This document shows, in pieces, positions 2,460 to 27,432 of a stretch of 44,361 nt of DNA. This DNA is from Candidatus Rokuibacteriota bacterium (GTDB taxonomy: Bacteria > Methylomirabilota > Methylomirabilia > Rokubacteriales > CSP1-6). The number at the start of each line of letters is the position of its first letter. Positions within the stretch are counted from its first letter, which is position 1. Where the stretch lies: assembly GCA_030647435.1 (NCBI GenBank), contig JAUSJX010000126.1, positions 1 through 44,361 of the forward strand. The letters run 5' to 3'. The notes beneath the pieces are model-generated. The model did not search any database. It worked only from the letters and a program-made list of their open reading frames with translations, and was not told where the DNA came from. A program made the translations under genes and the position numbers.

Positions 2460-2507
2460 GGCCCGTCCATCCGACCCCGCAGGTCAGTCCGTAGCGACTG
2501 ACCGCGT

Positions 2508-3509: not shown

Positions 3510-3561
3510 TCATGCCCCCGTGAAAGGACTGGGTTCGCCTGACCCTGTCGCGATTGAGACG

Positions 3562-4080: not shown

Positions 4081-4174
4081 CTAAATCGGACCCGGTTTCC
4101 TCGACACAACGGAAGCGCGAGAAGCCCTATTTCGGGGAACAGGTATGGCGCCAGCGACGAACTGCGATCCTGGC

Positions 4175-4450: not shown

Positions 4451-4463
4451 CGCTCGCGCGGGG

Positions 4464-5414: not shown

Positions 5415-5415
5415 C

Positions 5416-8128: not shown

Positions 8129-8151
8129 GACGTTTCAGTCTCTCCGACGCC

Positions 8152-9132: not shown

Positions 9133-9148
9133 CCCCTCGCCCGTCCGT

Positions 9149-10045
9149 CTACGCCTTCCGGAGAATCAGGTGGATCCCGCCACCATCCTCCGGCCGCCAG
9201 TCCTTCAACGACAGCCCGTTCCCCCGAACCATGTCCCGGCGCGTGAACCCATGCGGCTTCACCTCGACCAAGCCACGCGTAGTGAACTGAGCCAGCCACC
9301 AGTCCCCCGGCTTGAGCGTCCGATGATACACGGCACCGGTCAGCGGATTGCCGTCCGGAAGCAGATCAACCGAGCCGATGAAGTACCCCTCCGGCTTCAG
9401 ATGCCGGTGGATGTTACGGATCAGGCCGTCCAGCGCCTCTTCGGGGATATGCTCCAGAACCTCCCAGGCCGTGATCACATCGAAGAGGAACGCGCGGTCA
9501 TGCCAGTCGGTGACCAGGAACGGCTTGGTGATGTCGCAGGTGAACAGGTGAAAGGGGATCGTGTCCCACTCCCCCGACCGGAGCCGCTTCGACGTGTCCG
9601 ATCCCTCCAGCCCGATCGCGATGTGGCCGTCCTCGAGAAATGACCGCACCATCCCGCCGCCCGCGCATCCCAGATCCATCACCGCGATGCGCTCCGGGAA
9701 GCCCAGGGTCTCGTACAGCTTGAGGTTGAACCGGTAGTTCACCGAGTTGTCGAATACTGTGCCCCGCGGGTAGCGGTGGTCATCGCTCCCATGAGCCACC
9801 GGATAGTCCGACTTCACCTTCAGCCGGAGTCCCTCGTTCGCCGTCCAGTAGGCGAGGTACTGCTGTTTCCACAACGTATTGGCGCGTCGCTCTTCGGCGC
9901 TTTGCCGCCGCGGCGACAGTACTTTGTCCACGATCTCTACGGCGTGAAAGAAGAGCGGGGTGAGCACCGGCGGCTGCCGGGTCAGCATATATGTCTTCGC
10001 CTTTCGATAGTACCGTGTCGCCAGCCCCACCAGGGCCTCTCTCAT
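9149..10045 (-). CDS. Class I SAM-dependent methyltransferase
   Basis: The protein has 298 residues when started at the ATG in 10043-10045, which overlaps the TGA of the preceding glycosyltransferase gene (ATGA). After an N-terminal helical stretch of about 100 residues there is a Rossmann methyltransferase domain: motif I VMDLGCAGGGMVRSF, an acidic LEGSD after strand 2, and FDVITAWEVLEHIPEE as motif post-II. Part of the C-terminus reads GDWWLAQFTTRGLVEV. It probably methylates a sugar or glycan hydroxyl; the substrate is unknown. It ends 16 bases before hddA and belongs to the same run of closely packed minus-strand genes. Confidence 0.8.
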   Translation of the reverse strand: MREALVGLATRYYRKAKTYMLTRQPPVLTPLFFHAVEIVDKVLSPRRQSAEERRANTLWKQQYLAYWTANEGLRLKVKSDYPVAHGSDDHRYPRGTVFDNSVNYRFNLKLYETLGFPERIAVMDLGCAGGGMVRSFLEDGHIAIGLEGSDTSKRLRSGEWDTIPFHLFTCDITKPFLVTDWHDRAFLFDVITAWEVLEHIPEEALDGLIRNIHRHLKPEGYFIGSVDLLPDGNPLTGAVYHRTLKPGDWWLAQFTTRGLVEVKPHGFTRRDMVRGNGLSLKDWRPEDGGGIHLILRKA

Positions 10046-10773
10046 ACCCTGAACTCGCTCTTCAATTCTAGCAGGCCACGATACGCTTTCACGCATTCCC
10101 AGAGGAACCGGTTCGACGGCAATCCTCGGCTCACCCCGAACTTCCGCCGTCGGTGCATCACCCGAACCTGCTTGATCGCATAGTTGTTCAGCTCGGCCCT
10201 CAGCAAGAGCTCCGCGTTCAGCAGGGTTGGCATGCACCGAATCGTCGGGAGGAGTTCCCGAACCACCTCCCGCTTCACGAGCCGGAACGCCGAGTTGATG
10301 TCACTGTAATGGACGTCGAAGACGACGCGGGCGATGTAATTGAAGACCGCCGACGCCGCCTTGCGGGCGAAGGCGTCCTGGCGCCCGATCTTCGCCCCGT
10401 GAACAACGGAGAATTCGTTCGCGAACGGCACCAGCTTCCAGAACTCCGACGCCACGTACTGCCCGTCGGAGTCGGTGAAGAACACCCACGGGCATTGGGC
10501 GGCTAGATAGAGCCGCCTGGCGGCTGCCGCGAACCCGTCCTTCGTGTCGTTGTAGCGGACTTGAATGAACGGGTACTTCTCGGACATCCGGCCCAGGATC
10601 TCGCGGGTTCCGTCGGTGCTGGCCCCGTCGTCGAAGAGGAATTCGGAGCCCTCCGGTAGGTACCGAAAGACGTCCTGGACCCACTCCTCGATGACGTCCT
10701 CGATGATGTCGGCCTCGTTGCAGACCGGCATGAGGATGGACACCGGTCCGGGCACCGTCCGTTCGCCTTTCAT
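10042..10773 (-). CDS. GT2 glycosyltransferase, polyprenyl-phosphate sugar synthase type
   Basis: This 243-residue GT-A enzyme has SILMPVCNEADIIEDVI at the start, an FDDGASTDGT strand (the usual first Asp of family 2) and a TDSDGQY metal-binding DxD. A lysine/arginine-rich stretch near the end reads HRRRKFGVSRG. Size and motifs fit the DPM1/GtrB-type group that charges a polyprenyl phosphate with one sugar; no C-terminal membrane segments are seen. The start overlaps the stop of the large membrane protein gene (ATGA at 10770-10773). That is the expected pairing of a lipid-linked sugar synthase with the GT-C enzyme that uses it. The transferred sugar is unknown. Confidence 0.8.
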   Translation of the reverse strand: MKGERTVPGPVSILMPVCNEADIIEDVIEEWVQDVFRYLPEGSEFLFDDGASTDGTREILGRMSEKYPFIQVRYNDTKDGFAAAARRLYLAAQCPWVFFTDSDGQYVASEFWKLVPFANEFSVVHGAKIGRQDAFARKAASAVFNYIARVVFDVHYSDINSAFRLVKREVVRELLPTIRCMPTLLNAELLLRAELNNYAIKQVRVMHRRRKFGVSRGLPSNRFLWECVKAYRGLLELKSEFRV

Positions 10774-13007
10774 CGCGTCCCCTCCGTCGCGCTCTTTGGC
10801 AGCCGCACGACGATCGACTGCCAGGCGATCAGGAGCATCCGCGGGTCGTGTGGACTCCGCAGCACAGGATCGAGCGAGCTTGTGAACTTCACGACGTTTC
10901 GGCCTGCCCGCAACGAAAAGGGCTCGGTGACCAGCATCCTCTTCGTCTCCGAGGAGCGCACCGGCTGGCCGTTGACGGCGACCGAGATCGTCTCCCCGTC
11001 GCGCCGCCACAAGTAGCGCGTTTCCAGGCTCACCTTGACGCCCTCCGTCCGGCTATCCACGAAAACCGAGCACGACCGTCCGTCGTTGCCGCACCACCGG
11101 TGCGTACGCTCGCTTCCCGACCACCCTTCCCCAGGACTCAGGGTCAGGTCCGAGTCGGCGCCCTGATAGAGCACGAACCACGGGTTGATGTCGTACTTGA
11201 TCTTGTAGTCGGTCGCCTCGACGAAGAATATGTCCCGGGCGCTGCTCCGCGCCGCGGGTGTCATGGCCAGATAGTAGTCCTGGCTCAGAAACCCGACGGG
11301 TCTCCCTCCGTAGGGGAACCGCTGGTATACTTGTGGCTTCCGCATCGTAAAGTAGTTGATCCAGAACAGCGTGAAGTTGTCGGTGTCGAGCACGTTGATG
11401 CCCTTCACGAAGGGGAGGCTCTCGATCTTCTTCAGCTCTACGATCTCCTCGGGCAGGACGAAAGCCTGCTCGGCCATGAAGCGCACCAGGTCCTTGTCGC
11501 TCTTCACCGACGCAACAGCAACGGCGATGAAGCAGACGCCGGCGAAGAGCACCTTCAGCCGGCTGTCCCGCCAGGATGTCGTCTGGAAGCCCAGCGCGAG
11601 CCCGAGGAGCGTCACCCCGCTGAACGTCGCGGTAATCTTGGAGCTCCGATAGCTTCCCAGGATGCCTCCCTCCGATCCGACGACGGCGAAGTACAGCCCG
11701 ACCAGGAACAGCGGCACGAACAGCCCGAGCAGGAAGCTGAGGTGCGTCCGGCGCTCCATTCCTCTCGCTGCATGGACCACGGACACGACGAACGCCGCGA
11801 CGGCCATCGCCACGAACCAGGCGCGGCCTGAGGGCATTTGGCCGGCGAGGAAGATGCGCGCCGGATCCGGACCCACGGCGTCCGACGAGACCACGCCGCC
11901 ACCGACGAGGACGTCGGGGCTCAGCCAGGGGATGAACCAGCCGTTGTTCCCCCCCGCGAGCCAGCTGAGCGCGATGCCGATGCTACGGAGACGGAAGGGG
12001 TTCAGCAGTAGGCTCACCCCGAGCAAAACGAGCACCACGGCCGCCAGCTTCAATCCCTTGGACAGTCGCCGCGCTACCACCTCGTGGACCGCAGTATACG
12101 CCACCAGCAGCGCGCCGATTACCAGCAGCATGAAGTGGTAGGTCAGCAGCAGCCCTGAGAAGAAGATGACCACGGCCGGCGCGAATGGCAGGTAGTCCCG
12201 GACCGTGCTCCCCTCGCGCAGCGCGAAGGTGTGCAGGAACAAGAGGGCCAGCATGAGCCCCATCGAGATCATCTGGCCGCCGAAGCTCTGCCAGACCGTA
12301 TAGACGACGACCGGATTGATGGCGTAGAGGAGCGTCACTCCGATCGCGCTGGCGCGGGAAAAGGCCAAGCTCTCGCGCGCCAGCAGATAGAGGAACGGGA
12401 TGCCCTGGCAGGCGAGGACGTTCATGACCAGGCTCTGCAGCTTGTAGGGCTCGGAGCTCAGGATGGAGCTGGCGAAGGCGACGATGGCCGAGGGCCCGAA
12501 CCACACGTCGTCGGACGTCCAGGCAAAGTGTCCGCCCTGCCCGAGGAAGCCGACCTGGCTGTTCCGGGCGAACTCCTGCAAGAAGCGCGAGGCTCCCGCC
12601 AACTCCGCGATGTCGAGGTTGCCGAGGGACAGCGAGGTCGCCTGCCCGTGCTTGGCCAGGAAGGGAATCGAGACCACGACGAATCCCACCACCGTCAGCG
12701 CGGTGATGAGGCCGACCCTGGCGTTGCAGATCTCGCGGACTTCGGCGGGAGCCCGAAGCACCCCTACCGCGTAGAGCGCGAGCAGGATCACGGGGAGGGC
12801 GAGGACGGAGAACGCATAGGCGCTGATCGGGGCCAGATTCGACCGGTAGCCGTAGTAGGTGACGAAGACGACGTAGCAGTAGCCGATGGACGGCGCGAAC
12901 GCCAGCGAGTACCTCTTCAGTGGCCGGGGCAGCCAAGCGAACGAAAAGGGCAGCCCGCAGACGAGTAACAGCAGCCACGAGAGGACAGAATAGTAGTAGT
13001 ACTCCAT
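10770..13007 (-). CDS. Polytopic membrane protein, GT-C glycosyltransferase-like
   Basis: This 745-residue protein has roughly a dozen hydrophobic segments in its first 530 residues and a soluble C-terminal tail of about 210 residues. The tail is rich in beta-type sequence (an RYLWRRDGETISVAVNG stretch and a FSLRAGRNVVKF strand). An acidic LDIAEL motif follows an early membrane segment, at a place where GT-C enzymes keep their catalytic acid. No known family is recognised with certainty. The start ATG at 13005-13007 begins MEYYYYSVLSW. Its stop overlaps the GT2 gene, so it may transfer a lipid-linked sugar onto the glycan in the periplasm. A Wzy-like polymerase is the main alternative. Confidence 0.6.
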   Translation of the reverse strand: MEYYYYSVLSWLLLLVCGLPFSFAWLPRPLKRYSLAFAPSIGYCYVVFVTYYGYRSNLAPISAYAFSVLALPVILLALYAVGVLRAPAEVREICNARVGLITALTVVGFVVVSIPFLAKHGQATSLSLGNLDIAELAGASRFLQEFARNSQVGFLGQGGHFAWTSDDVWFGPSAIVAFASSILSSEPYKLQSLVMNVLACQGIPFLYLLARESLAFSRASAIGVTLLYAINPVVVYTVWQSFGGQMISMGLMLALLFLHTFALREGSTVRDYLPFAPAVVIFFSGLLLTYHFMLLVIGALLVAYTAVHEVVARRLSKGLKLAAVVLVLLGVSLLLNPFRLRSIGIALSWLAGGNNGWFIPWLSPDVLVGGGVVSSDAVGPDPARIFLAGQMPSGRAWFVAMAVAAFVVSVVHAARGMERRTHLSFLLGLFVPLFLVGLYFAVVGSEGGILGSYRSSKITATFSGVTLLGLALGFQTTSWRDSRLKVLFAGVCFIAVAVASVKSDKDLVRFMAEQAFVLPEEIVELKKIESLPFVKGINVLDTDNFTLFWINYFTMRKPQVYQRFPYGGRPVGFLSQDYYLAMTPAARSSARDIFFVEATDYKIKYDINPWFVLYQGADSDLTLSPGEGWSGSERTHRWCGNDGRSCSVFVDSRTEGVKVSLETRYLWRRDGETISVAVNGQPVRSSETKRMLVTEPFSLRAGRNVVKFTSSLDPVLRSPHDPRMLLIAWQSIVVRLPKSATEGTR

Positions 13008-13032: not shown

Positions 13033-14004
13033 CTACAGAGTCGGAACCCGAACCCGACGACGCCAGTACTCGAGTGTATCCAGGAGGGTCCGCTCGAAGG
13101 AGATTGCGGGCTGCCAGCCGAGCTCCTTGCGGACCTTGGAGGCGTCACCGAGGAGGTGGGGTACGTCGGAAGGACGGAGCCGCGCGGGGTCCTGCTTCAC
13201 TACAATTCCCGAGACTCTGGCTTCACGCAGGAAAAAGTCGAGAACCTCCTGGATCGTCCAGCTCCGGCCGGAGCAGAGGTTGTACACCTCGCCGGGCTCT
13301 CCACGCTCTAGCAAGAGCCAGTAACCCTGGACGATGTCACGCACGTCAGAGTAGTCCCGCCGGGCCTCAAGGTTTCCCACATGGACCACCGGCTCGCGGA
13401 GCCCCGCCTCGATCTCGGCGATCTGCTTGGCGAAGTTGGAGGTCACGAAGACGTCGCCCCGGCGGGGGCCCTCGTGGTTGAAGGCGCGGGAACGGACGAT
13501 GGGCAGGCCGTAGCTCTTCCAGTACTGGTAGCCCATCAAATCCTGTGCGACCTTGCTGACCGCATAGGGGGAGAGCGGGCGCAGCGGGTTCGTCTCCTTG
13601 ATCGGTAGCTCGTCCTCATGGACCAGACCATATTCCTCGCTGGAACCGATCACGAGAAACCGAGGCTTCTTCGGGCGAACCCGGATCGCCTCCAGGAGGT
13701 TCACCTGACTCACCGTGTTCGTGTAGAACGTCTCAGCCGGCGTCTGCCAGGAGGCCGCCACGAAGCTCTGGGCGGCCAGGTGGACCACGTAGTCCGGATT
13801 CGCCGCCTCCACCAAGCCCTGCACCGAGGAAAGGTCGCGGAGGTCGGACTCGATCAGCTGGATCTGCGATCGGAGGTGCTCGATGTTCTCGGTCCTGCTC
13901 CGCCAGCGAATCGAACCGATCACCTCGACCCCTTTGCCCAGGGCATACTCGGCGAGATGACTACCGACGAACCCGGTGATACCAGTGATCAGCACTCGCG
14001 TCAT
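13033..14004 (-). CDS. GDP-mannose 4,6-dehydratase-like SDR
   Basis: This 323-residue extended SDR starts MTRVLITGITGFVGSHL. It has SSEEYGLV and SPYAVSKVAQD carrying the catalytic Ser/Glu and YxxxK. The stretch RSRAFNHEGPRRGDVFVTSN is a hallmark of the GMD/Rmd branch, followed by RRDYSDVRD and YNLCSG. The likely reaction is dehydration of a GDP-mannose-type sugar to the 4-keto-6-deoxy form. Close relatives act on GDP-manno-heptose in capsule loci that also carry gmhA and hddA, so GDP-heptose is a realistic substrate here. The start at 14002-14004 was chosen over longer forms because the Rossmann strand begins there. Confidence 0.85.
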   Translation of the reverse strand: MTRVLITGITGFVGSHLAEYALGKGVEVIGSIRWRSRTENIEHLRSQIQLIESDLRDLSSVQGLVEAANPDYVVHLAAQSFVAASWQTPAETFYTNTVSQVNLLEAIRVRPKKPRFLVIGSSEEYGLVHEDELPIKETNPLRPLSPYAVSKVAQDLMGYQYWKSYGLPIVRSRAFNHEGPRRGDVFVTSNFAKQIAEIEAGLREPVVHVGNLEARRDYSDVRDIVQGYWLLLERGEPGEVYNLCSGRSWTIQEVLDFFLREARVSGIVVKQDPARLRPSDVPHLLGDASKVRKELGWQPAISFERTLLDTLEYWRRRVRVPTL

Positions 14005-14070
14005 TGCCACGCCATTGCTCCTAAGAGGAAAGAACGGCATCTCACTTGTCTGCCTCCCGTTACCCGTCTC

Positions 14071-14310
14071 AGCGCTTAACGATCTCGATCGTCGGACATG
14101 GGGAAATAATACCACCTCCCCTGTCGAGCGACTCTCTTTCCCTTTCGAGGAATTCCCTCTTGAAGTGCCACGGCAGCACAAGGTAGTAATCCGGCTTCAT
14201 TGCTCTCGACTCGCCCTCGCTGATGATCGGGATGTCCGTTCCCAACGCCCGTGCGCCATGTTTCCCCAGGTTCCGGTCGGCCGCATGCTCGATGATGGTG
14301 TTGTCAAGAA
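14071..14310 (-). pseudogene. C-terminal remnant of a sugar methyltransferase
   Basis: Downstream of the intact methyltransferase gene the minus strand reads an open stretch ending DIPIISEGESRAMKPDYYLV, LPWHFKREFLERE, and GGGIISPCPTIEIVKR before a TGA. It aligns without gaps to the last 70 or so residues of the upstream enzyme (HIPIISEREARSMKPDYFLV and onward). Homology fades upstream of about 14310. Just before it, at 14384-14370, lies an AGGAGG box and an ATG that opens only a 16-codon frame (MRYEGVCF..) ending in TAG. The relic is the tail of a second, diverged paralogue whose body has been deleted. Confidence 0.65.
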
Positions 14311-14383
14311 ATGCAATATTACTAAAAAGGATCGCACACCCTCCAGATAAAACATACCCCTTCGTAACGCATAGCGCCCTCCT

Positions 14384-15622
14384 TCAAACAATCTCAATTT
14401 CTGGAAATGGGAAGATCATCTTTCCTCCGTTTGCCAGATATTCTTTTTCACGATCGAGTATTCCAGCTTTAAAGTGCCAAGGTAAAACGAGGAAATAGTC
14501 CGGTTTCATCGAACGAGCCTCGCGTTCGGAAATGATTGGGATATGTGTCCCGGGGGTGAAACAACCGAACTTATCCGGGTTGACGTCCGCGATCGCAGGG
14601 ACATCCCGCTCCGAGAACCCGCAGAACTGCAAGACCACATTGCCCTTAGTTGACGCCCCGTAGCCAAGCACTGTTTTCCCATCGGCGACCAATGCGCGGA
14701 TCAAACGAACCAGGTCCTCGCGATGCCGAAATGCCCTCTCTTCGAATTCGCGGTATGGTCTCGGTGTGCTGAGTCCCATACGCTCTTCCTGTTCAAGAAG
14801 CCAGTTGATCACCGCGTCATTCGCCTTAACCTTTCGATTTCCCACCTTAGCCACGGAAACCGCAAAACTGCCGCCATTCACCGCGTTCATCACAACATCG
14901 ACGATCTTGAGCCCCGCCATTTCCATGATTGTCTTAACTACGCCGAGCGAGTAATACTCCAAGTGTTCGTGGCAGATGGTGTCGTACGAGTTGAGACGTA
15001 ACATCGACGGCATGTAGCTCTGCTCAAAATGCCAAATGCCGTCTTCAGCAAGCACTGATTCGATCTCGCAAGCGAATTTTGCGGGGGCTTCAAGATCGTA
15101 AAACATCGCTATCGAGGTGATGATTTTTGCAGGCTTCGACTGAACGGACCGGTAGGCTGCCGAGGAGAAAAAGTCCGGAACGAGTCTAATATCGTTGCTG
15201 TAATACTGTCCGAACTTCCGACCCGTCGGGTCGATTCCGACTCGCTGTATGCCGGGGGTGCGGTAAGCCCTGAGCGTAGTCGCATCGTTGCTGCCGATGT
15301 CGAGCACTATGTCTCCTTGACCCAATGGTATCGTCCGCTCTAAGTAGCGGACCTTTTCTGTCAGATGATTCACCATCGACTGGTTCAGCCCCGACCGATA
15401 CCCGTAGCTATTGCCATACACTTCGTCAAGATCATAGGAGTGCCTCAGCTGGAGCAATCCGCTGTCGGGGCACCACACTAGCTCCAAAGGCCCCGACGTC
15501 ACCTCCACGTCGCGGCTATTCGGGAAAACTCCCGTCAGCACCTGATTACCCAGGTTGAGTACCGAAACCAGACGGCTACTACCACTGATGCGACATTCTT
15601 TGATCTCACGGTAATTCGTCAT
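14384..15622 (-). CDS. Sugar C-methyltransferase with CxxS zinc-motif remnants
   Basis: This 412-residue protein is of the same family as the enzyme at 5416-6618. The SAM domain has VLDIGSNDATTLRAY as motif I. The C-terminal domain includes GYGASTKGNVVLQFCG and HIPIISEREARSMKPDYFLV. Its N-terminal zinc module is altered: both expected CxxC pairs read CxxS (C10-R-I-S13 and C51-P-D-S54), each explainable by a single T-to-A change (TGT/TGC to AGT/AGC). It may no longer bind zinc tightly or may be decaying. It lies 25 bases after the tri-modular glycosyltransferase gene, in the AT-richer part of the locus, and is followed by the tail of a paralogue. Confidence 0.82.
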   Translation of the reverse strand: MTNYREIKECRISGSSRLVSVLNLGNQVLTGVFPNSRDVEVTSGPLELVWCPDSGLLQLRHSYDLDEVYGNSYGYRSGLNQSMVNHLTEKVRYLERTIPLGQGDIVLDIGSNDATTLRAYRTPGIQRVGIDPTGRKFGQYYSNDIRLVPDFFSSAAYRSVQSKPAKIITSIAMFYDLEAPAKFACEIESVLAEDGIWHFEQSYMPSMLRLNSYDTICHEHLEYYSLGVVKTIMEMAGLKIVDVVMNAVNGGSFAVSVAKVGNRKVKANDAVINWLLEQEERMGLSTPRPYREFEERAFRHREDLVRLIRALVADGKTVLGYGASTKGNVVLQFCGFSERDVPAIADVNPDKFGCFTPGTHIPIISEREARSMKPDYFLVLPWHFKAGILDREKEYLANGGKMIFPFPEIEIV

Positions 15623-15647
15623 GAATCACACTCCATTGGCCAACTCA

Positions 15648-18600
15648 CTAATAACCTTTCTCAACTAGGCCAAAGCGTGTAAGAAGCTCCGTCGGGGGCG
15701 CGTCGTTGCGTACAAGTCCTTCGTCATATGCCCGTTGATATATCTTTACGAACTCGCCCAATTGGGCCTGGAATTCTGCTAGATGCTTATGCCTTCTAAC
15801 GAATCTTTCAAAGGAAAAACGATCCCGATTTCCCGCGCCATCATCGAAATATATCACCGGAAGAAAATGCAACGCCCCCGGAAGATTGTGCACCCGCCAC
15901 CGATCCACCTCTGCTGGATCGGCCCCTCGCAACTCCGCCAACTCATATAACTCCGGAAGCCGTTCAAGAACCCACAACGGCGCGTGCTTTACCCACGATA
16001 CGTTCATATTGACCACTACACATGGCTCGCCGATCCAATACCCCATTTCCCGGAACATGTAATTGCAGACGTAATAAGATGTTGGAATACAGGTCAATAA
16101 TGATGAGAACGGCTGCCCAACGATATCCTGAGAATAAGCTTTGATCGCATGGTCCCGCCTAAAAACGAGACAATAAATCGCTGTAAAAAAGTTTTCGCTC
16201 ATGGTTGCAAGTTCAGCAATCGGAGCGCAGCGGTCCTCACTGAGTGGAGTAATAGGGATCGCGCTTGAGACAAATTCATCGATATCTTCGATAGTCCGCG
16301 GCGCATCATGGTGCGTATAGGCGTAGTTGAGATAGATTAACGCAAGATTAGGTCTTTCAACAATGACCCCTAAGATCTTTTCTAGCGCGCCCGCCTGCAA
16401 GATATCATCGTCCCCGAGTAGCCATACGAATCGCCCGCGGGCATGGTGCACGGTTTCTCGCAAATTCCCGAGCATCCCAACGTTCACCGGGTTTCTAAAA
16501 TACCGAAAACCAGGAAACCCACGGTATTGAGCTGCGACCCTTTCGGTATTATCAGATGAGGCATTATCGCAGACTACAATCTCAACCACGTCGGTATAGG
16601 GCGAGACAAACTTCGTTAGCTGTTTAAGGCTCACATCCAGCCATTCCGACCGGTTGTACGTTGTGATGCATATTGACAGCAACGGCGAGTAAAGCTTCGG
16701 CGCTAGCGGCATCGCCGGGTTTGGTTGAAATGGCGCGACCGACCGGTCCGCCAGAACAGCCAGCACTTCCCGGCTGTAAGCCCGCCACGTTTTGAACGTC
16801 CTTGATGTTGCCTCGCGACCGAGCCGTTCTCTTTCGACCTCGTCATCGATGAGTTTCCTTATTGCCTCGGCCAACTGGGCTTCGTCTGCCGTATCTACGA
16901 GAATACATCCACCCCCTTGGGCAGCCTCGACCATTGCTCCCCGGTCCCGGCAGATGCACGGTTTCCCATGCCACAAGCTTTCGAGAATCGGCAGCCCAAA
17001 TCCCTCTTCGAGTGATGGATAAACAGTAAAATGACATGCCGAATATAACTCCCTCAATCGTGCATCATCGACATGGCCGATCCACTTTATTGCCGGGTTT
17101 AGACTGATATATCCTTCAACTTCCTCGCGTAGGTCATCGGCCACCCGGCCAACCACTGTCAATTCCGCCTTTCTCGTACTGTGTTCCATGGCGGCGAGGA
17201 ATGCCCTAAACATCTTAGCGTGGTTCTTCCTTTTCTCAATCGTGCCCACGCTCAAGATACTGATGACGTCGCCCGAGGGCTCTTCATACCGAGTCGTTCG
17301 CGGTACATCGATAAACTCTCCCGGGAGACTTATTGCGATCACCCGGTCGTCCAAATCGATCAGACGCGTTTTTTCGCGAACCAAGAAGTCGCGTAAATCC
17401 ATTCTGCTATGCTCCGAGATCGCAATCACGAGGTGAAACCGATCCAGCGCCCCCATATAAGCCGTATGGAGTGTTGTCGCTAGCGGAGAGCAGCATTCCG
17501 GCATCTTGTATGGAATCGCATCGTAAAAGAGAATCGAGGAGCGTATCCCTAAGCTTGCGGCGTACTGAACGACACAGGGGAGATCTGGCCCGGAAGGGTA
17601 GGCCGTCAACTCCGGAATCAGAAGCCATGTACTGGGCTTATCGGCAAAGTCATCGGATAAAGTCCAAGCATTGGGGTCAGGGCCGGACCAGCGCGCGAGA
17701 TATTCAAGGTCCGCATGTGTAGGTGGAACGAAAACCGATTTTTGCGCATCCCATTTCACCGGCACGAGTTCAACTCCCTCAGCGATTAAAGACTTTGCCA
17801 GAAGGCGTGTTACCCTCTGAATCCCCGTGTTGTACGGAAATATACAGGTGTGCTCGACCCAATATAGAATCCGCCTGACCTTGCTGACTGGATCGGAAAT
17901 TTCGTCGAGCAGCAGAGAGATTTCCGTCGCGTACGCGTCCCACGTCTTTATCTTTCGGGTTAATGCCTCTTGAGCCAAATCGCGCCACTGGTTCTCATCA
18001 GTCGCCAATCGCTCCATTGCCGTCGCGATTTGGTCAACCGATCGGACATCAACCTGCAAGCATCCCCCTTCGCGGGCTACCTCATCCATCGCGCCAAACT
18101 TGGCGCATACGCACGGCTTGCCGTGCCACAAACTCTCCAAGATCGGTAGGCCAAAACCTTCCTCGATTGACGGAAATACCGTGAACTTACTGCGCCGATA
18201 CAGCTTTACAAGCTCCACATCTTCGACATACTGGAGGTAGCTGATTTTTGGGTTACGCTGCGTGGCTTCCAGGACGCGCTCCGCAACCGCCGGATGCAGA
18301 TGCCCTACGAGAACCAGGCGAAGTGAACGTTCGGGATACTTGACACAGAGCCGATTGAAAGCATCAATTAACGTGATCTGATTTTTGTGAGGTTCTACTG
18401 TCCCGACTGACAAAATCATGGTCTCCGCAGAGTCCTGCTCTAATCGCTGTGCCCTTGGGCTCTCTGGAATTTCTCCCGGCAAACTAACTGGCCGAACAGT
18501 AGGCAATGTTCGGTCGTCGAAACAAATGAAGGTTCTGAGATAAGCGACATAATCATCCGCTGAAAACTCCGAAATCGGTATAATCAAATCTGCCATTGCT

Positions 18601-19109
18601 ATATGTTGCATGTATGCTGCGTGGGCTTCTGCAGCGGTCGCGTACTCTGGAAGTTTTAGCGGAATTGCATCGTAGAAAATGAACGCAGACCTCAACCCGT
18701 AATGCCTTGCGTAGAGTATTGGATCGAGCGTAGGCGGCGACTCGTGATATGTGATGTGGGTCACCTCTGGCACGATAAGCCACCCTTCACCAGCGACGAA
18801 GTGTGGTGCCTCGTGCAATTCGCAGACTTCGCCCACCGCGGGATATTGCGCAAGAGAGGTTCTGTCTAGTTGCGGGCCGCTGAATCGAGAAAAATGCTCG
18901 AGCTCGTCCCTAGTTACCAAGACAAGACTCTTTCGCTCAGAATTCCACCCTACAAACACGACATTTTTATCGTTATTCATAAGAGCGCGCGCAAGACAGC
19001 GCGTGACCCGTTGCATCCCGGTATTCGACGCATACTTGGCTGTATGGTCGATCCAGTAATAAATCGGGTTCCTTTTCATGGTCTGATTGTTCTCCAATCC
19101 ATATTCCAT
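15648..19109 (-). CDS. Tri-modular glycosyltransferase (GT4-GT4-GT2)
   Basis: This 1153-residue cytosolic protein contains three transferase modules. Module 1 (about residues 15-400) and module 2 (about 410-795) are internal duplicates. Both start with YYW/LYW-(I/V)-(D/E)HT followed by NTG(M/I)QRVTR, and both carry ILSVGT(V/I)E..KN and the GT4 donor motif EEGFGLPILESLWHGKPC. Module 3 (about 805-1150) is family 2, with LSICITTYNRSEWLDVSL, CDNASSDNT and LLGDDDIL as its DxD. It could add two sugars of one type and one of another to the growing chain, as a multi-linkage polymerase. A start at the internal Met of MKRNPIYYW (19079) is possible. It lies between the FkbM and C-methyltransferase genes; its G+C is clearly lower than the core genes. 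Confidence 0.87.
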   Translation of the reverse strand: MEYGLENNQTMKRNPIYYWIDHTAKYASNTGMQRVTRCLARALMNNDKNVVFVGWNSERKSLVLVTRDELEHFSRFSGPQLDRTSLAQYPAVGEVCELHEAPHFVAGEGWLIVPEVTHITYHESPPTLDPILYARHYGLRSAFIFYDAIPLKLPEYATAAEAHAAYMQHIAMADLIIPISEFSADDYVAYLRTFICFDDRTLPTVRPVSLPGEIPESPRAQRLEQDSAETMILSVGTVEPHKNQITLIDAFNRLCVKYPERSLRLVLVGHLHPAVAERVLEATQRNPKISYLQYVEDVELVKLYRRSKFTVFPSIEEGFGLPILESLWHGKPCVCAKFGAMDEVAREGGCLQVDVRSVDQIATAMERLATDENQWRDLAQEALTRKIKTWDAYATEISLLLDEISDPVSKVRRILYWVEHTCIFPYNTGIQRVTRLLAKSLIAEGVELVPVKWDAQKSVFVPPTHADLEYLARWSGPDPNAWTLSDDFADKPSTWLLIPELTAYPSGPDLPCVVQYAASLGIRSSILFYDAIPYKMPECCSPLATTLHTAYMGALDRFHLVIAISEHSRMDLRDFLVREKTRLIDLDDRVIAISLPGEFIDVPRTTRYEEPSGDVISILSVGTIEKRKNHAKMFRAFLAAMEHSTRKAELTVVGRVADDLREEVEGYISLNPAIKWIGHVDDARLRELYSACHFTVYPSLEEGFGLPILESLWHGKPCICRDRGAMVEAAQGGGCILVDTADEAQLAEAIRKLIDDEVERERLGREATSRTFKTWRAYSREVLAVLADRSVAPFQPNPAMPLAPKLYSPLLSICITTYNRSEWLDVSLKQLTKFVSPYTDVVEIVVCDNASSDNTERVAAQYRGFPGFRYFRNPVNVGMLGNLRETVHHARGRFVWLLGDDDILQAGALEKILGVIVERPNLALIYLNYAYTHHDAPRTIEDIDEFVSSAIPITPLSEDRCAPIAELATMSENFFTAIYCLVFRRDHAIKAYSQDIVGQPFSSLLTCIPTSYYVCNYMFREMGYWIGEPCVVVNMNVSWVKHAPLWVLERLPELYELAELRGADPAEVDRWRVHNLPGALHFLPVIYFDDGAGNRDRFSFERFVRRHKHLAEFQAQLGEFVKIYQRAYDEGLVRNDAPPTELLTRFGLVEKGY

Positions 19110-19165
19110 GTTTCAGATCGTCTTATTAAGTCGGTTGTTGTAGCTACTTCGAAGAGCCGACATTC

Positions 19166-20563
19166 TCAAACTGCGCTCTGTCCTTGGCGATGCTCTGTCT
19201 CGCTACGTATTCTCGCTCTCAGCGCTTCGACATCAACGACCGCTTGCATCGATTCAATAACAGCGAATCTCCCAACACGCTCCCCCGAGTGATTTCCAGT
19301 TGGCGCCTGAACCGCCGGCGAGAGATTCGATGTCGGGGGGGTGTCCGCGCCGCGCGGCGGGTCGAGGGAGTCTGCATTGAGCCCTACCATCGACGCCTCA
19401 GGTGTCACCGATAGAAACTGCCTGATGCGCCACCGCAACCGGGGCCAACGCATCATCAGCCTTCGTGCAAGCCGACGCAAAGCGGGACGGTTCGCTGCCC
19501 GGCGCCCTGCCGCTCGCAGCGGTTCCCTAGGCATTCGCACTAGATAGCTCCACGCGCCAAGCAATATGTGCACGCTCAGAACAAACCGGCGTTTAGCAGC
19601 GCGCAGCGGGGCAGTCATACGCCAAGAGCGGCTGTTGTAATACAACTCTATTGTGCCGCGCAGTTCGGTGGCAACCCGGCGCTCTTCAGCGAGCTGCCCG
19701 CGCAGCCCATCGGTTTCCCGGGCAAGCCCCTCGCGTTCGGCTTCCGTCCGTCCCACGCGCTCGCGCAATGTCTCGGCATCACGCCGGGTCTCTTCGAGCT
19801 GCCCGCGCAGCCCATCGGTTTCCCGGGCAAGCCCCTCGCGTTCGGCCTCACGACGCGAAGCGTGCTCTGTTGCCCGCCACTCCTGATAACGGATGTAATG
19901 GTCAAAATAATTAGGGGGAATGGAGAACATGCTCTTGAGCGTCGCATGTTCGGTCGCGACGTAAAAACGATTCAATCCATCGAAATATGCGAACTCGTAC
20001 CCCCGGTTCGTCAGCAGGTGCTCCCACTGTTTGTGCGTGGTAACTTGCGAATTTGGTTCCGTCGCTTCGACAAGAATGATGTGTGGCCGAATGTCCGTAA
20101 GGCTGATACCGCGTAAGACTTCCGCTTCAGCTCCCTCGACATCGACCTTGAGGAAATGCACTTCTTTCACACCGGATTCAGCGCAAATCATATCCAGCGG
20201 CTTTGCGAGAATCTCATATTCCCGCACTTCGAAACCCTGCGCGGCATGCTGTCGCGCAAAGTTTACGTCCGCGGTCGACATGCCCGTGTCTCGGACCTCA
20301 AAGAATCTCACATTGCCAGTTTGCGACGATGCCGCAAGCTGCAAGTTGATGTCCTCCGGCCTGTCCGCAACGAGCTTCTGAAACCAGTGCTCGACGGGTT
20401 CAATGTTGATACCGCGCCACCCGCGCTCGTAGAACGCCTTGGTTACCGAATCGAACAGTGGGTCCTGTGCGCCAACATCAATATAGAAGCCTTTGTCGAC
20501 CCCTTTCAGGGCCCGAAAGAGCATGACATCTTCGTAGTTCTGGGCGTAGGAAATGAACGTCAT
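19166..20563 (-). CDS. FkbM-family methyltransferase with coiled-coil extension
   Basis: Of 465 residues, the first 215 or so form an FkbM methyltransferase: MTFISYAQNYEDVMLFRAL, YIDVGAQDP as motif I, and the FLKVDVEGAEAEVLRG signature. A charged coiled coil follows (about 225-310), in which AEREGLARETDGLRGQL occurs twice, 35 residues (five heptads) apart. The segment after it contains YNSRSWRMTAPLRA, a motif often seen at the ends of locus glycosyltransferases. The C-terminus is basic, then low in complexity. FkbM enzymes O-methylate sugars; with a coiled coil this could be a chain-capping enzyme held at a set distance from the membrane. That role is inferred by analogy with WbdD. Confidence 0.82.
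   Translation of the reverse strand: MTFISYAQNYEDVMLFRALKGVDKGFYIDVGAQDPLFDSVTKAFYERGWRGINIEPVEHWFQKLVADRPEDINLQLAASSQTGNVRFFEVRDTGMSTADVNFARQHAAQGFEVREYEILAKPLDMICAESGVKEVHFLKVDVEGAEAEVLRGISLTDIRPHIILVEATEPNSQVTTHKQWEHLLTNRGYEFAYFDGLNRFYVATEHATLKSMFSIPPNYFDHYIRYQEWRATEHASRREAEREGLARETDGLRGQLEETRRDAETLRERVGRTEAEREGLARETDGLRGQLAEERRVATELRGTIELYYNSRSWRMTAPLRAAKRRFVLSVHILLGAWSYLVRMPREPLRAAGRRAANRPALRRLARRLMMRWPRLRWRIRQFLSVTPEASMVGLNADSLDPPRGADTPPTSNLSPAVQAPTGNHSGERVGRFAVIESMQAVVDVEALRARIRSETEHRQGQSAV
19690..19849 (-). repeat. Two 55-bp direct repeats, 105-bp period, inside the FkbM gene
   Basis: The segments 19690-19744 and 19795-19849 are nearly identical (one obvious difference, cttc versus cctc near the end). 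Both encode AEREGLARETDGLRGQL. The 105-base period equals exactly five heptads, so gain or loss of a unit would keep the coiled coil in register. Near-identity at the DNA level points to a recent duplication or gene conversion. Confidence 0.85.
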
Positions 20564-20621
20564 AGATACGCAAGCTCAATGGTGGGTAGAAGCCAAGCAG
20601 ATTCGATAAAAAATATCCTTG

Positions 20622-21200
20622 TCATAAGTCGACGCAGTGAATGTAAAGACGAGTTCCCGCCACTCGTAATTGTTCACGCACCCGTGCCGCCTGCGTGTCA
20701 ACCTGCGACTGTAGCGCGGCTTGTGCCGCCCCCACCCGCGCCGCGCCCTCTTCCCGGACCGCTGCGAGCGCCTGCTCCAATCCCTCGGTCCGCCCCCCCA
20801 GCTCCGCCACCCGTGCCGCCTGCGCCTTCAAGCCCCCATGCAAGGCGCGAAGCGCAGCAAGACTGGCGTTGTTGAAGACACGCTGGTCCCGGGTAATGAT
20901 TTGAGCAACCCGAAGAAACAATCGGGCAATAACTATAGCCAGCCCTCGCTTGATCCCTTGCTGTCGGGTCATCGAAGGCAGACTCAAGCCAACGCCGTGA
21001 ACCTCCTGCGCGGCCGTAAGGACTTCGTCAACGACGCCGCCGTTCGCGGGGGTGGGAGCTTGGCCCGCTGGATTTGCTTCGCTCGCGTGCTTCGCGCCCT
21101 GCGCCCGCCGCAGGCGCACTTCTTCACGGATACCCTGCATGAGCTCATCAATGGTAACTTCAGAATTCGCCATATGGAAAGGCCGTGGTCCCGTCGTCAT
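20622..21200 (-). CDS. Orphan coiled-coil protein of the polysaccharide locus
   Basis: This 192-residue protein has no recognised catalytic domain. The N-terminus contains VTIDELMQGIREEVRLRRAQ, a motif I associate with the first part of locus methyltransferases and glycosyltransferases. A Pro/Ala linker and an amphipathic stretch (RGLAIVIARLFLRVAQIITR) follow, then an Ala/Gln/Glu-rich coiled coil from about residue 115 to 180. The protein ends shortly after (LYIHCVDL), so it looks like the front half of a larger enzyme left without its catalytic part, or a dedicated scaffold. A later start at 21173 (MANSEVTIDELM) is as likely. It sits between wzt and the coiled-coil FkbM gene, and a partnership between the two coils is plausible. 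Confidence 0.6.
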   Translation of the reverse strand: MTTGPRPFHMANSEVTIDELMQGIREEVRLRRAQGAKHASEANPAGQAPTPANGGVVDEVLTAAQEVHGVGLSLPSMTRQQGIKRGLAIVIARLFLRVAQIITRDQRVFNNASLAALRALHGGLKAQAARVAELGGRTEGLEQALAAVREEGAARVGAAQAALQSQVDTQAARVREQLRVAGTRLYIHCVDL

Positions 21201-21216
21201 TTTCCCCGCGTTGATC

Positions 21217-22023
21217 TCAGTGCCCCAGTTTGGACTCGCCGCCGATTGCGCTGGAAGCTCGATCGCCAGACTCAGAGTGAGAACGCACCTCGTGAGTGTA
21301 TGCTTTCACGACCGTGGCCGGGTTCCCTTTCATCTTCAGCAGCCCAGCATCCAGCCACACCGCTTCGTCTGACCAAGACTGAACCAGCTCGGGATCATGG
21401 CTCACGAGGATTATTGTCTTGCCTGACGCCTTGAAATGACCCATCCGGTCAATAGATTTTTGACTGAAGGCTGCATCTCCAACCGCCAGAACCTCATCGA
21501 TCAAGAGCACGTCCGGATCCACATGGACGGCTACCGAGAACCCAAGACGCATGTACATGCCGCTGGAATACGTTCGGACGGGATCGTCTATGTACTCCCG
21601 GAGTTCGGCAAACTCGACGATCTCATCAAGCTTGGCTCGAATCTCCCGCTTTGTCAGACCGAGGATGATTCCATTGATCATCACGTTTTCCCGTCCGGTC
21701 AGCTCGGGGTGAAAGCCGGCACCCAGCTCAATGAGGGCCGCCACCTTGCCGTTCACGGAGATTGTCCCCGCATCAGGCTTCAGGATTCGACTGATCACCT
21801 TAAGCAACGTGCTCTTTCCGGAACCGTTTCGACCGATGACCCCCAAAGTTGCCCCGCGTTCTACCTTCAGGTTCACATCCCTCAGAGCCCAGATGACATT
21901 CTTGGTGGCATCCTTTCGGTGCCACAGGTCCCGCAAGAAATAGGACTTCAACGTCGTAGCGAGCGGACGCTCGGTATGCCGTCGATACTTCTTTGATACG
22001 CCCAATAATTCAACGGCGACCAT
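21217..22023 (-). CDS. wzt: Polysaccharide ABC exporter ATPase (Wzt/KpsT type)
   Basis: This 268-residue ABC ATPase has Walker A GRNGSGKST (64-72), signature TYSSGMYMRL (151-160), Walker B DVLLIDEVLAVGD (171-183) and the switch His in VSHD (about 209). The EVLAVGD motif and the preceding GAGFHPELTGRENV are hallmarks of the Wzt/TagH/KpsT group, which powers export of undecaprenyl-linked or phospholipid-linked polysaccharides. The chain stops about 50 residues past the nucleotide domain, so the Wzt C-terminal carbohydrate-binding domain is absent. Export should therefore not depend on reading a terminal cap through Wzt. The gene follows wzm with a three-base gap. Confidence 0.93.
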   Translation of the reverse strand: MVAVELLGVSKKYRRHTERPLATTLKSYFLRDLWHRKDATKNVIWALRDVNLKVERGATLGVIGRNGSGKSTLLKVISRILKPDAGTISVNGKVAALIELGAGFHPELTGRENVMINGIILGLTKREIRAKLDEIVEFAELREYIDDPVRTYSSGMYMRLGFSVAVHVDPDVLLIDEVLAVGDAAFSQKSIDRMGHFKASGKTIILVSHDPELVQSWSDEAVWLDAGLLKMKGNPATVVKAYTHEVRSHSESGDRASSAIGGESKLGH

Positions 22024-22026
22024 CCG

Positions 22027-22764
22027 TTACACCTCTTCGGCGAAGACGTCCCTGCGCGCCCCGAAAACAGCCAGGCCGATCGCCAGGAACGCAACGGACA
22101 AGCCGGTCAATATCATTAAGCTGGCCATCGAAGGGATCCGATTAGAAAAGAACATATCTTGATATGCCGTGATCAATTGAGCCATGGGGTTAAACTTCAC
22201 CACGGGACGATACCTCTCCGGCACCATCCCAACGGGGTAAAGGATTGGCGTAACGAAGAACCAGATCATCAAGAAGTTCGGCACAACATGAAGAAGGTCA
22301 CGGAACTGAACCGCGAGCGACGACACGATCAGCGCCAGCCCGTAGGTGAACAGCAACTGAATAGAAAGGATCCAGGGGAAGAAAAGTAATGGCCACGACA
22401 GTTTTATTCCAAAGAAGATTAAGAAGAGGAGAAGGATCGGAATGCTCAAAAGATAGTGCACCATGTTGGAAGCGACGTACACTAACGGAAACATCTCCGA
22501 AGGGAGGTAGACCTTTTTGATAAGCCCGCCATTACTGATAATGGAGTTGGTGGCTTCATTCAGTCCTGACGAGAAGCAGTTCCACGGAAGAATCCCGGAC
22601 AGGAGAAAGACGGAGTAGTGCTCCATGTCAACACGGAAGTACACCGAAAAGACCCAAACGTAAACCACCATCAGAACCAGCGGGTTGACAAACGACCACA
22701 GAAATCCCAGAGCGGTTCCGCGATACCGGGCTTTGAGTTCCCTCAAGATTAAGATCTGAACCAT
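22027..22764 (-). CDS. wzm: Polysaccharide ABC exporter permease (Wzm type)
   Basis: This 245-residue ABC-2 permease has about six membrane segments. It shows the amphipathic N-terminus LILRELKARYRGTALGFLWS typical of Wzm/TagG/KpsM proteins. Further family features are the FSSGLNEATNSI segment, the NGGLIKKVYLPSEMFPL loop and a PILYP turn before the last helices. With Wzt it moves a lipid-linked glycan across the inner membrane. No C-terminal or N-terminal truncation is seen. The gene opens a new group after a non-coding stretch of about 265 bases, so a promoter probably lies just upstream. Confidence 0.92.
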   Translation of the reverse strand: MVQILILRELKARYRGTALGFLWSFVNPLVLMVVYVWVFSVYFRVDMEHYSVFLLSGILPWNCFSSGLNEATNSIISNGGLIKKVYLPSEMFPLVYVASNMVHYLLSIPILLLFLIFFGIKLSWPLLFFPWILSIQLLFTYGLALIVSSLAVQFRDLLHVVPNFLMIWFFVTPILYPVGMVPERYRPVVKFNPMAQLITAYQDMFFSNRIPSMASLMILTGLSVAFLAIGLAVFGARRDVFAEEV

Positions 22765-23031: not shown

Positions 23032-24201
23032 TTACGATCGCGCAGCACCGGACACCGGCCCCTCTGAACACCGAGCTCTTGACACCTCGTCGATCACCCC
23101 GGAGATCTCCGCTCCGGTCCTCTTCCAGCTAAACGCCTGCGCCCGACGCACGCCCCGCTCCCGAAGCTCCTCCCGCAGCTCGCCATCTGACAGCACGCGG
23201 TACATCGCATCCGCCATGCTCGCGGCATCATAGAGATCAACGAACAGCGCCGCGTCCGCCGCGACCTCGCGGAGCGCGGGGATGTCCGAGGTGACGACCG
23301 GCGTCCCGCACGCCATCGCCTCCAGCACGGGAATGCCGAATCCTTCCCCGAGGGACGGCAGCACGAAACAGGCGGCGTGGGTGTACAGCCGGCGGAGCGC
23401 GGCCTCCGTCAAGTAGTCGAGGAAGGTCACGGCGTCACCCAGGCCCAGCGTCTCAACCCGCTCCCTCACCGCCCGCACGTACGCCGGCCGACCGTGGCCC
23501 CGGCTGACCAGGCGACACGGACGGCGCCACCGAAGGATCGCCACAGCGTCCAGCAGCCTGAGCAGGTTCTTGTGGGGAAGCAGATTCCCGACGTAGAGGA
23601 CATACGCGTCCCGATCACCGCCGGGTGAGTCATCGAATGCCTCTCGACGGTACACGGTGGCGTCGTATGCCGGATGGAGGATCCGAATCTTCTCGAGCGG
23701 AACCCCGTAGCGCTCGCTGATGTGCAGCCGGGTGTTCTCCGAGTCAGCCACGACCATCGTCGATGCGCGAAGCACTCGAGGCACGAGCAGGCGGAAGTAG
23801 TATTGCTGACGCGGGTACTCCGCCGGAAAGCACAACGGCAGCAGGTCGTGAACCACGGTGATCTGAGGCATGGAGGAGCCCACTATTCTCTCGGGCACGG
23901 TGTTGAGGAGAACGGTCACGCCCGCAACACGGGCTTTGAGCCGAAGCAGGCTCTGGACCCAGAGCGCCCGGAGGAAATGACCCCGCGCGCCGTAGTCAGG
24001 ACGCGAGCAGACGGGCACCCGGCCGATCCGAGCCTTGAGCGATGGGAAGGCTTCCGGGTGGGAGGTGTAGATGACGAGGTCTCCCCAGCGCTGATCGAGC
24101 TCGCCCACCAGCTTGATCGCGTACACTCCGAGGCCGGTGGGATTCTCCCCCACGATGGAGGCGTTCACGCCGACGCGGGTACCCCCATTCGCCGAGGTCA
24201 T
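23032..24201 (-). CDS. GT4-family glycosyltransferase
   Basis: This 389-residue GT-B enzyme has an N-terminal acceptor domain with ENPTGLGVYAIKLVGEL and VVHDLLPLCFP. Its donor domain has YVLYVGNLLPHKNLLRLLDA, the E-x7-E stretch SLGEGFGIPVLEAMACGTPV, and DIPALREVAADAALFVD. It is mannosyltransferase-like (compare WbaZ/WbdB-type enzymes), but the sugar cannot be told. The start ATG at 24199-24201 precedes the first strand (RVGVNASIV); longer in-frame forms add low-complexity sequence. It is the first gene of the polysaccharide locus in transcription order, and its GC-rich codon use contrasts with the exporter genes that follow. Confidence 0.87.
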   Translation of the reverse strand: MTSANGGTRVGVNASIVGENPTGLGVYAIKLVGELDQRWGDLVIYTSHPEAFPSLKARIGRVPVCSRPDYGARGHFLRALWVQSLLRLKARVAGVTVLLNTVPERIVGSSMPQITVVHDLLPLCFPAEYPRQQYYFRLLVPRVLRASTMVVADSENTRLHISERYGVPLEKIRILHPAYDATVYRREAFDDSPGGDRDAYVLYVGNLLPHKNLLRLLDAVAILRWRRPCRLVSRGHGRPAYVRAVRERVETLGLGDAVTFLDYLTEAALRRLYTHAACFVLPSLGEGFGIPVLEAMACGTPVVTSDIPALREVAADAALFVDLYDAASMADAMYRVLSDGELREELRERGVRRAQAFSWKRTGAEISGVIDEVSRARCSEGPVSGAARS

Positions 24202-24419
24202 GCGGATCGCACACTCATGGTCACCCGGTGGCGATTGTATATGCTTGAGCCCCCCTCTGCTGTCAACTTCCCCCCCTTCGCACGCTGGAAATCGCAACCC
24301 AACGGTACACCGCAAATAGGGATCTCGGCGCTATGTCCTCCCCAAAAGAATCAAAAGCTGATTCTGGAGGCCCTCTGTGCCAGCCAGCGAACGGGCCAGT
24401 ACAGGAGGGGGCAGCTGGA

Positions 24420-26363: not shown

Positions 26364-27383
26364 ATGCCAACACTGCGACGACCGCGCCGGCTGTGGGATA
26401 CGTATCGCTTGGCGGGATTCCGACCGAGTTCGACGGTCGTGGGGATCTTCGGGGACCCGCAAACGCGCGTGCTCACCCTCACCCGGCGGTCAAAAAAACG
26501 GCCTGCGGGACCTAGTGATCTGCGCGTGAGCGCGATCACGGAGTCGCGGATGCGCCAGCTCGTGACCCAGGTCCAGGACGCGGGCCTCTCGGCCCGGCGG
26601 ATCAACTTGGCGCTCTTGGTGCTCAAGATGATCCTGCGCACGGCGGTGCGGCGGCGCTTCATGCGGGAGGACCCCACCGAGCATGTCCGTGGTCTCCGGG
26701 AGCCCACGACTGAGGCCGATCCGCTTGACCCGGACATGGTGACGGTGTTTCTCGCAGCGTGCCCACCGTGGTGGCGCCCGTACTTCACCGTGGCGTTCTG
26801 GACGGGCGCCCGCCCGAACGAGCTGGCGGCGCTCAAGTGGGGCGATGTGGATGCCGCACGCGGCATCCTGCGCATCCGGGCGGCGCGCTACCGCGGCACG
26901 GAAGGCCCGCCCAAGACCGCCAGCAGCGTGCGCGACATCGACCTGTTCCCGGCCGTCACGGATGCGCTGAAGGCCCAGAAGGCCCAGCAAGCCGCCGAGC
27001 GTCTCAAGCGCGGCCGTGGGGCGCCTGCGACGGGGCAGGATTACGTCTTCACCGGGGCGCAAGGGGGCCTGCTGAACGTGAACGCCCTCCGGGACAGGGT
27101 CTGGTATCCCACACTCACGACAGCCAGCCTGAGCCGCAGGACGATGTACCAGACCCGGCACACGTTTGCCTCAAATGCCTTGGCCGCGGGCGAGGCGCCG
27201 TCCTGGGTGGCGGCGATGCTGGGGCATGCGAGCCCCGAGATGCTGTTCAGCGTGTACGCGCGCTACATCCCGAACAGGACGCGGCGAGACGGCAGCGCGC
27301 TTATGCACCGGATGGAGGGGACGAAGACGGTCACCACACCTGCGGAGGGGGCCGCTGCGGTACTCCCGAAATACTCCCGCTGA
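26364..27383 (+). CDS. Tyrosine recombinase (phage/island integrase)
   Basis: This 339-residue integrase has a SAM-like core-binding domain (about residues 50-115). In the catalytic domain the first Arg is in TGARPNELAALKWGDVD (R150), Lys in PPKTASSVRDID (K184), Arg in YQTRHTFAS (R265), His in LGHASPEM (H288) and the nucleophile Tyr in SVYARYIP (Y298). The usual first His of HxxR is Tyr262, a substitution I have seen in some integrases. The N-terminal arm-binding domain is short or missing. The gene ends 49 bases from the 3' end of tRNA-Leu and points toward it, the classic layout of an element integrated at a tRNA. Confidence 0.88.
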   Translation: MPTLRRPRRLWDTYRLAGFRPSSTVVGIFGDPQTRVLTLTRRSKKRPAGPSDLRVSAITESRMRQLVTQVQDAGLSARRINLALLVLKMILRTAVRRRFMREDPTEHVRGLREPTTEADPLDPDMVTVFLAACPPWWRPYFTVAFWTGARPNELAALKWGDVDAARGILRIRAARYRGTEGPPKTASSVRDIDLFPAVTDALKAQKAQQAAERLKRGRGAPATGQDYVFTGAQGGLLNVNALRDRVWYPTLTTASLSRRTMYQTRHTFASNALAAGEAPSWVAAMLGHASPEMLFSVYARYIPNRTRRDGSALMHRMEGTKTVTTPAEGAAAVLPKYSR

Positions 27384-27432
27384 CGTCCGGGCCGACCGAG
27401 TACACTAAACAACACGCCCGCTTAGCAATCAT

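Follow-up and report, generated by a model that had tools for sequence, protein, structure and literature searches.

What product calls for three glycosyltransferases on a single polypeptide, and with which partners does such a protein work? The question is raised by a gene at 15648..19109, on the minus strand of a 44,361-nucleotide stretch of DNA from a Candidatus Rokuibacteriota bacterium (contig JAUSJX010000126.1 of assembly GCA_030647435.1), the whole of which is referred to here as the window. The gene encodes a 1153-residue protein in which two GT4 modules are followed by a GT2 module, and which is termed the trio below. It is probably the three-module polymerase of a polymerase-terminator, ABC-exported glycan that contains a C-methyl deoxysugar. 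Klebsiella and E. coli have supplied most of the terminators and polymerases known for this pathway, and the extent to which modules can be recombined is stated by the field as an open question (PMC11231755).

Three glycosyltransferase modules in one chain

The open reading frame starts with ATG and has no internal stop. Pfam assigns its product a pair of Glycos_transf_1 matches (E 1.6e-50) and, at residues 812-931, a single Glycos_transf_2 match (E 5.8e-21), which bears out the claim of an earlier, sequence-only reading that a GT2 module stands behind two GT4 modules in one chain. Window coordinates written with two dots are on the minus strand here and below, except where stated. Modules 1 (amino acids 14-405; 17895..19070) and 2 (amino acids 411-788; 16746..17879) were delimited by Pfam, module alignment and an AlphaFold2 model, and each has an EX7E motif of the form EGFGLPILE, at E317-E325 (18135..18161) and E702-E710 (16980..17006), respectively. 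Module 3 (amino acids 808-1150; 15660..16688), recognized by Pfam and in relatives, has the acidic motif D900-D901-D902 (16404..16412). The opening motif is NTGMQRVTR in one GT4 module and NTGIQRVTR in the other, and EEGFGLPILESLWHGKPC is present in both, just as the sequence-only reading had quoted them.

The AlphaFold2 model of the chain was built on four sequences and has a pLDDT of 69.8 and a pTM of 0.47. Its two GT-B-like modules are well built (block pLDDT mostly 60-91 for module 1), and the predicted GT-B fold together with EX7E is what a GT4 enzyme should have. The GT2 module is only partly built; its C-terminal half is unreliable, and its assignment as a GT2 with GT-A core and DXD draws on D900-D902 and Pfam. 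In a Foldseek search with the model the best match was 8qoy, the Cps multienzyme of Actinobacillus pleuropneumoniae serotype 3, and single GT4 enzymes came next. Multi-module polysaccharide synthesis is shared with 8qoy, but that is a capsule enzyme, the identity is 12% and the TM-score over the whole chain is low.

The same modules are present in metagenome-assembled genomes of Syntrophobacter (L016; same order, modules 47-56% identical to those of the window), Gallionellales (L017) and Geobacteraceae (L018, a 5′-truncated copy), on a Rhodovastum atsumiense G2-11 plasmid (L014; protein at 13348-17280), and in one Nitrospirota genome (L082, 45% identity). Compared with the window, relatives show 42-51% identity over the entire trio and 48-57% in module 3, the best conserved of the three. 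The window assembly is in 176 contigs, and an assembly or frameshift error could in principle have united separate genes; the chance of this is practically negligible, as the same order recurs in several independent assemblies, a sequenced plasmid record among them, and the gene is not split by any stop.

That only some modules are active, the rest being structural relics, is quite improbable. In its favor, module 1 of the window has H instead of R in its EPRKN motif, about 180 amino acids of sequence without assignment stand where module 2 would be in two relatives (L015 and the Nitrospirota locus L034), the Rhodovastum protein has an insert of about 175 amino acids between modules 1 and 2, and in an Azospirillum plasmid relative (L063) the GT4 portion has been cut and has decayed to 22-34% identity. 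Against it, EX7E is intact in both GT4 modules of the window and DDD is kept in its GT2 module, as they are in the full-length relatives. By eye, the Rhodovastum insert resembles a decayed N-terminal half of a GT4. The Azospirillum protein (5000-10873 of its locus) has 1957 amino acids; besides the GT4 remnants it includes four DUF4214 repeats and a GT2 that shares 44% identity with module 3.

Candidate terminator partners and export

ABC-exported O-antigens are made by polymerases, of which WbdA has one module for each linkage type; an extended coiled-coil protein is the marker of polymerase-terminator systems (PMC11231755), with the terminator at its far end and a membrane-near end that recruits the polymerase (PMC11231755; PMC3482155). 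The Nitrospirota gene of L082 (7588-12990) encodes a single chain of 1800 amino acids in which a WbdD methyltransferase-kinase is followed by a coiled coil, a tail and then GT4, GT4 and GT2. Residues 9-481 match the WbdD crystal chain 4uw0 (O9a) with 388 bits and E 9.5e-115. The gene order is wzm, wzt with Wzt_C, the 1800-residue chain, a gene for a C-methyltransferase here called CMT1 (76% identical to that of the window), GT4 and GMD. This chain is the published coil, terminator and polymerase arrangement in one polypeptide, which makes it very likely that the trio is a polymerase.

In the window, genes for a Wzt-like ABC ATPase of 268 amino acids (21217..22023; domain search) and a Wzm-like ABC-2 permease (22027..22764; Pfam) are three and four genes upstream of the trio gene in the same run of genes, so that a probable multi-module polymerase lies beside Wzm/Wzt. 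The proposal of the sequence-only reading that the protein acts as polymerase for ABC-dependent export gains from this and from the WbdD fusion, which in L082 lies behind wzm and a wzt whose product bears a carbohydrate-binding module (CBM). It is unlikely that the trio instead builds one fixed oligosaccharide (core, Wzy-pathway O-unit or protein glycan) and no polymer. The Syntrophobacter locus has, by eye, a WbaP-type initiating transferase-like gene and no wzm/wzt in its 3′ flank, DUF4214 proteins are encoded in the Rhodovastum and Azospirillum clusters, the former without wzm/wzt in its flank, and type I secretion genes are a further part of Azospirillum clusters. However, wzm and wzt lie close by in the window as well as in L034 and L082, and the L082 WbdD fusion requires a polymer end to cap.

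The position of WbdD in L082 is held in the window by a separate protein of 465 amino acids (19166..20563) with an FkbM methyltransferase domain (Pfam, 2.2e-25), a coiled coil and an amphipathic 'SRSWRMTAPLR' tail, a candidate terminator or scaffold. It has a heptad pattern at residues 227-313, where the AlphaFold2 model, of low overall confidence, has a single helix (220-309). It had no match in the PDB at E 0.01 and hence is not a WbdD by sequence. A coiled coil, after which come an SxSWRxTxPLR-like motif and basic helices, travels with the trio: it is in this separate protein in the window, in an FkbM gene product beside the trio in Rhodovastum and in an FkbM-GT2 fusion in L034, and it is fused in frame ahead of the trio in Syntrophobacter (tail SKSWRVTAPLR) and L082. 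The Nitrospirota L034 order is wzm, wzt with Wzt_C, a sulfotransferase-like gene (by eye), the FkbM-coil-GT2 fusion, a shorter GT4-x-GT2 protein, CMT1 (73%), GT4 and GMD. One conserved trio thus comes with three partner formats, WbdD fused, coiled-coil tail fused, and a separate FkbM-coil gene, and these are natural swaps for probing the roles of the coil, the cap and the binding module of the transporter. Between wzt and fkbM is a gene (20622..21200) for a protein of 192 amino acids that starts 'TIDELMQGIREEVRLRR', has a predicted coiled coil and belongs to no known family; comparison with a Rhodovastum protein of 220 amino acids found nothing. On the Rhodovastum plasmid a second FkbM-coiled-coil gene forms a pair with a gene for a multi-glycosyltransferase of 1090 amino acids (1822-6376).

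That FkbM/coiled-coil proteins make up another, as yet unrecognised class of terminators, which swaps with WbdD on the same trio and in the window goes with a transporter lacking a carbohydrate-binding checkpoint, is a tentative suggestion, rated somewhat below an even chance, and much the same can be said of FkbM as the chain cap in the window. The literature searched yielded no paper on FkbM as terminator and none on WbdD fused to a polymerase. A realistic if not favored possibility, and the main rival to FkbM as cap, is that the trio polymerises as in K. pneumoniae O2a, with no terminator and with length set by transporter:polymerase stoichiometry, the FkbM-coil protein being a scaffold and in-chain O-methyltransferase. 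Wzt in the window has no Wzt_C and is short, and short Wzt proteins also occur in CMT1 clusters of Phyllobacterium and Rhizobium (the latter with FkbM genes), O1/O2 transporters have no CBM (PMC11231755), and the window Wzt scores 201 bits to a galactan Wzt/RfbE model, below the cut-off of 400. Yet an extended coiled coil with a methyltransferase is the terminator signature, L034 combines an FkbM-coil protein with a CBM-bearing Wzt, and in L082 WbdD replaces FkbM-coil.

Several points weigh against the proposed polymerase-terminator system. The window Wzt is without the Wzt_C domain present in L034 and L082, and the terminated systems in PMC11231755 all have a CBM on Wzt; for this reason end-methylation of the chain by FkbM is only proposed. 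Neither the flanks in the Rhodovastum relative nor the 3′ flanks at the Syntrophobacter and Gallionellales loci, whose 5′ flanks are cut by contig ends, yielded wzm/wzt. In one Azospirillum relative the GT4 modules have decayed and only the GT2 is retained, so the whole trio is not needed in every case. Finally, no canonical GMD gene was found elsewhere in the host genome, which leaves the donor route incomplete.

Among known systems WbdA (two or three modules), WbbB and ORF6-O7 are multi-module precedents (PMC11231755). WbdA/WbdD of E. coli O9a/O8 (K. pneumoniae O3/O5) has the same multi-module polymerase, coiled-coil methyltransferase partner with membrane-near C-terminus, and Wzm/Wzt, and the L082 relative has WbdD itself on the trio. 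In contrast, the modules of WbdA are all mannosyltransferases, the FkbM partner in the window has no kinase, and the window Wzt has no CBM. In K. pneumoniae O7, ORF6 (methyltransferase-kinase, CBM, coiled coil, GT2, GT2) also has terminator, coil and polymerase in one chain, as in L082 and partly in L016 and L034, but with two TDP-Rha GT2 modules and a stand-alone ribofuranosyltransferase instead of GT4-GT4-GT2. WbbB (K. pneumoniae O12 and Raoultella terrigena) has three glycosyltransferase modules in one chain for ABC-dependent O-antigen assembly; its families are GT99, GT102 and GT103, and one module is a Kdo terminator. WsaE of Geobacillus stearothermophilus combines a methyltransferase cap and two glycosyltransferase modules in one chain with Wzm/Wzt (PMC2943079), though for an S-layer glycan with a dTDP-Rha donor and without a third module. 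Judged by the features compared, the trio is outside the WbdA family, whose modules are all GDP-mannose mannosyltransferases, its third module being a GT2; it is a real, conserved, new module arrangement in a known class of machine, and most likely works like WbdA.

With the trio as polymerase, the repeat unit would be assembled on a lipid carrier at the inner membrane, each module contributing one of its linkages. From family mechanism, modules 1 and 2 as retaining GT4s would form alpha linkages from GDP-alpha-sugars and module 3 as an inverting GT2 a beta linkage from a GDP-alpha-sugar donor. The linkage assignment that the sequence-only reading thought the architecture deserved can be offered as this mechanistic guess, and goes no further. 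The FkbM/coil/amphipathic-tail protein, in the place of WbdD, probably tethers the polymerase to the membrane; it may also cap chains by O-methylation, with length set by the coil, and Wzm/Wzt would export the product. A separate GT4 (23032..24315; Pfam) may serve as adaptor or primer glycosyltransferase. Another Wzt_C domain is encoded on contig C12 of the host (251999-252397; L070), so that at least one further ABC glycan exporter is probable there.

The C-methyltransferase and the probable donor sugars

CMT1 accompanies every copy of the trio. In the window it is a 412-amino-acid protein (14384..15622) with Pfam Methyltransf_13/14, and its best PDB match is the D-mycarose 3-C-methyltransferase 4rv9 (E 1.3e-58). 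It is homologous to MtmC/TcaB9 over its full length and by this homology belongs to the sugar 3-C-methyltransferases. At 412-414 amino acids in all, it is encoded directly after the trio in the window, L016, L017, L018 and L082, one gene upstream in L014, and after the shorter GT4-x-GT2 protein in L034. Identity to the window copy is 72-76% in L016, L017, L018, L034 and L082 and 67% in L014, above that of the entire trio (42-51%). C-methyltransferases of the CMT1 family in the host's own phylum are just 44-53% identical to it, so the window CMT1 is closer to the copies of other phyla.

Next to CMT1 is a gene for a short-chain dehydrogenase (13033..14181; likely true start 14004) with an SSEEYG motif. 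Pfam labels it a GDP-mannose dehydratase, a label set aside as it is nearer to the GDP-4-keto-6-deoxyhexose reductase RMD (best PDB match 2pk3, 281 bits, versus 213 for the GDP-heptose 4,6-dehydratase 7us5). GMD genes are present in L016, L034, L082 and alphaproteobacterial plasmids. A 71% identical CMT1 homologue in Phyllobacterium is beside GMD, manC-type and ABC-exporter genes, and, going by the title of a reference in PMC5644692, the O-polysaccharide of Phyllobacterium trifolii contains 3-C-methyl-D-rhamnose. CMT1, the RMD-like reductase and the GMD genes of relatives suggest a GDP-3-C-methyl-6-deoxyhexose donor, and at least one donor of the trio is probably such a sugar (3-C-methyl-D-rhamnose or similar), made with the neighboring CMT1. 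Further along, at 4464-9132, the window has GmhA, an HddA-like kinase, two epimerases and a second C-methyltransferase (27% identical), with no evident HddC; the GmhA/HddA pair leaves a GDP-heptose or 6-deoxyheptose route possible.

Origin and spread

Did the two GT4 modules arise by internal duplication, as the sequence-only reading had it? The module comparison gives 154 identical residues of 397 (39%, E 6e-87), and neither GT4 resembles the GT2 module. At the DNA level the main match is a 184-nucleotide stretch of 65% identity, and such a short match points to an old split. Recent tandem duplication is rejected: a clade of the window's own modules 1 and 2 costs a delta lnL of 81 (p 1e-4), and forcing together both L082 GT4 modules is likewise rejected. 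In the tree, module 2 sequences of different phyla cluster (support 95/89) and window module 1 is nearest to module 1 of the Syntrophobacter and Gallionellales proteins. The GT4s form position-specific lineages across phyla, each window module being nearer to its positional counterpart elsewhere, and the two diverged before the protein spread among bacteria. Tests of modules 1 and 2 as one clade differ with the taxon set: p was 0.29 in an earlier set and 0.039, marginally disfavored, with Nitrospirota rows added, a set in which module 2 fell closer to the GT4 at the C-terminal end of Pseudomonas-type double-GT4 proteins. The claim of internal duplication is only partly supported: an older duplication is possible, direct tandem duplication is not demonstrated, and assembly from two older paralogues is the alternative. 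In the Pseudomonas syringae-type GT4-GT4 proteins (L043) the C-terminal GT4, 36% identical to module 2, is of the same subfamily, and their clusters have GMD, wzm and CBM-bearing wzt; they differ in an N-terminal GT4 of another subfamily and in having no GT2 module.

Genome scans found no second full-length copy of the trio protein among 95 genomes of its own phylum (cut-off E 1e-40), one among 396 Nitrospirota genomes, and only the already known one in the 395 genomes scored for the phylum of L016 and in the 369 scored for the class of L017. On this count the protein appears rare, patchily distributed and common to several phyla. Viral contigs contained no relative, and a viral origin was ruled out on that ground. 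Such patchy spread, together with the tightly conserved CMT1, allows a prediction of which uncultured bacteria make C-methyl deoxysugar polymers.

The sequence-only reading, sound in its core observation, overlooked the FkbM/coiled-coil partner, the C-methyltransferase and the low-GC block in which they lie. The block wzm-wzt-hyp-fkbM-trio-CMT1 (14384-22764) has genes of GC 0.50-0.63, and 0.56-0.69 at third codon positions, versus 0.65-0.74 and 0.89-0.97 in the flanking oppABC, gapA and lapB-like genes; because of this low GC it was probably acquired from elsewhere. Sugar genes at 2.5-14 kb are intermediate in composition. A phage-type integrase gene (26364..27383, plus strand) beside tRNA-Leu(gag), the pair spanning 26364-27517, is a possible island edge. 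It sits at the border of the lower-GC glycan genes and high-GC core genes. A search for a second tRNA-Leu end (att repeat) found none, and the integrase is unproven as the agent of acquisition. Both the window (3562-4080) and the Syntrophobacter locus (8921-9709) encode an NBR1-type Ig-like protein whose N-terminal region is lipoprotein-like, and the two proteins share 40% identity.

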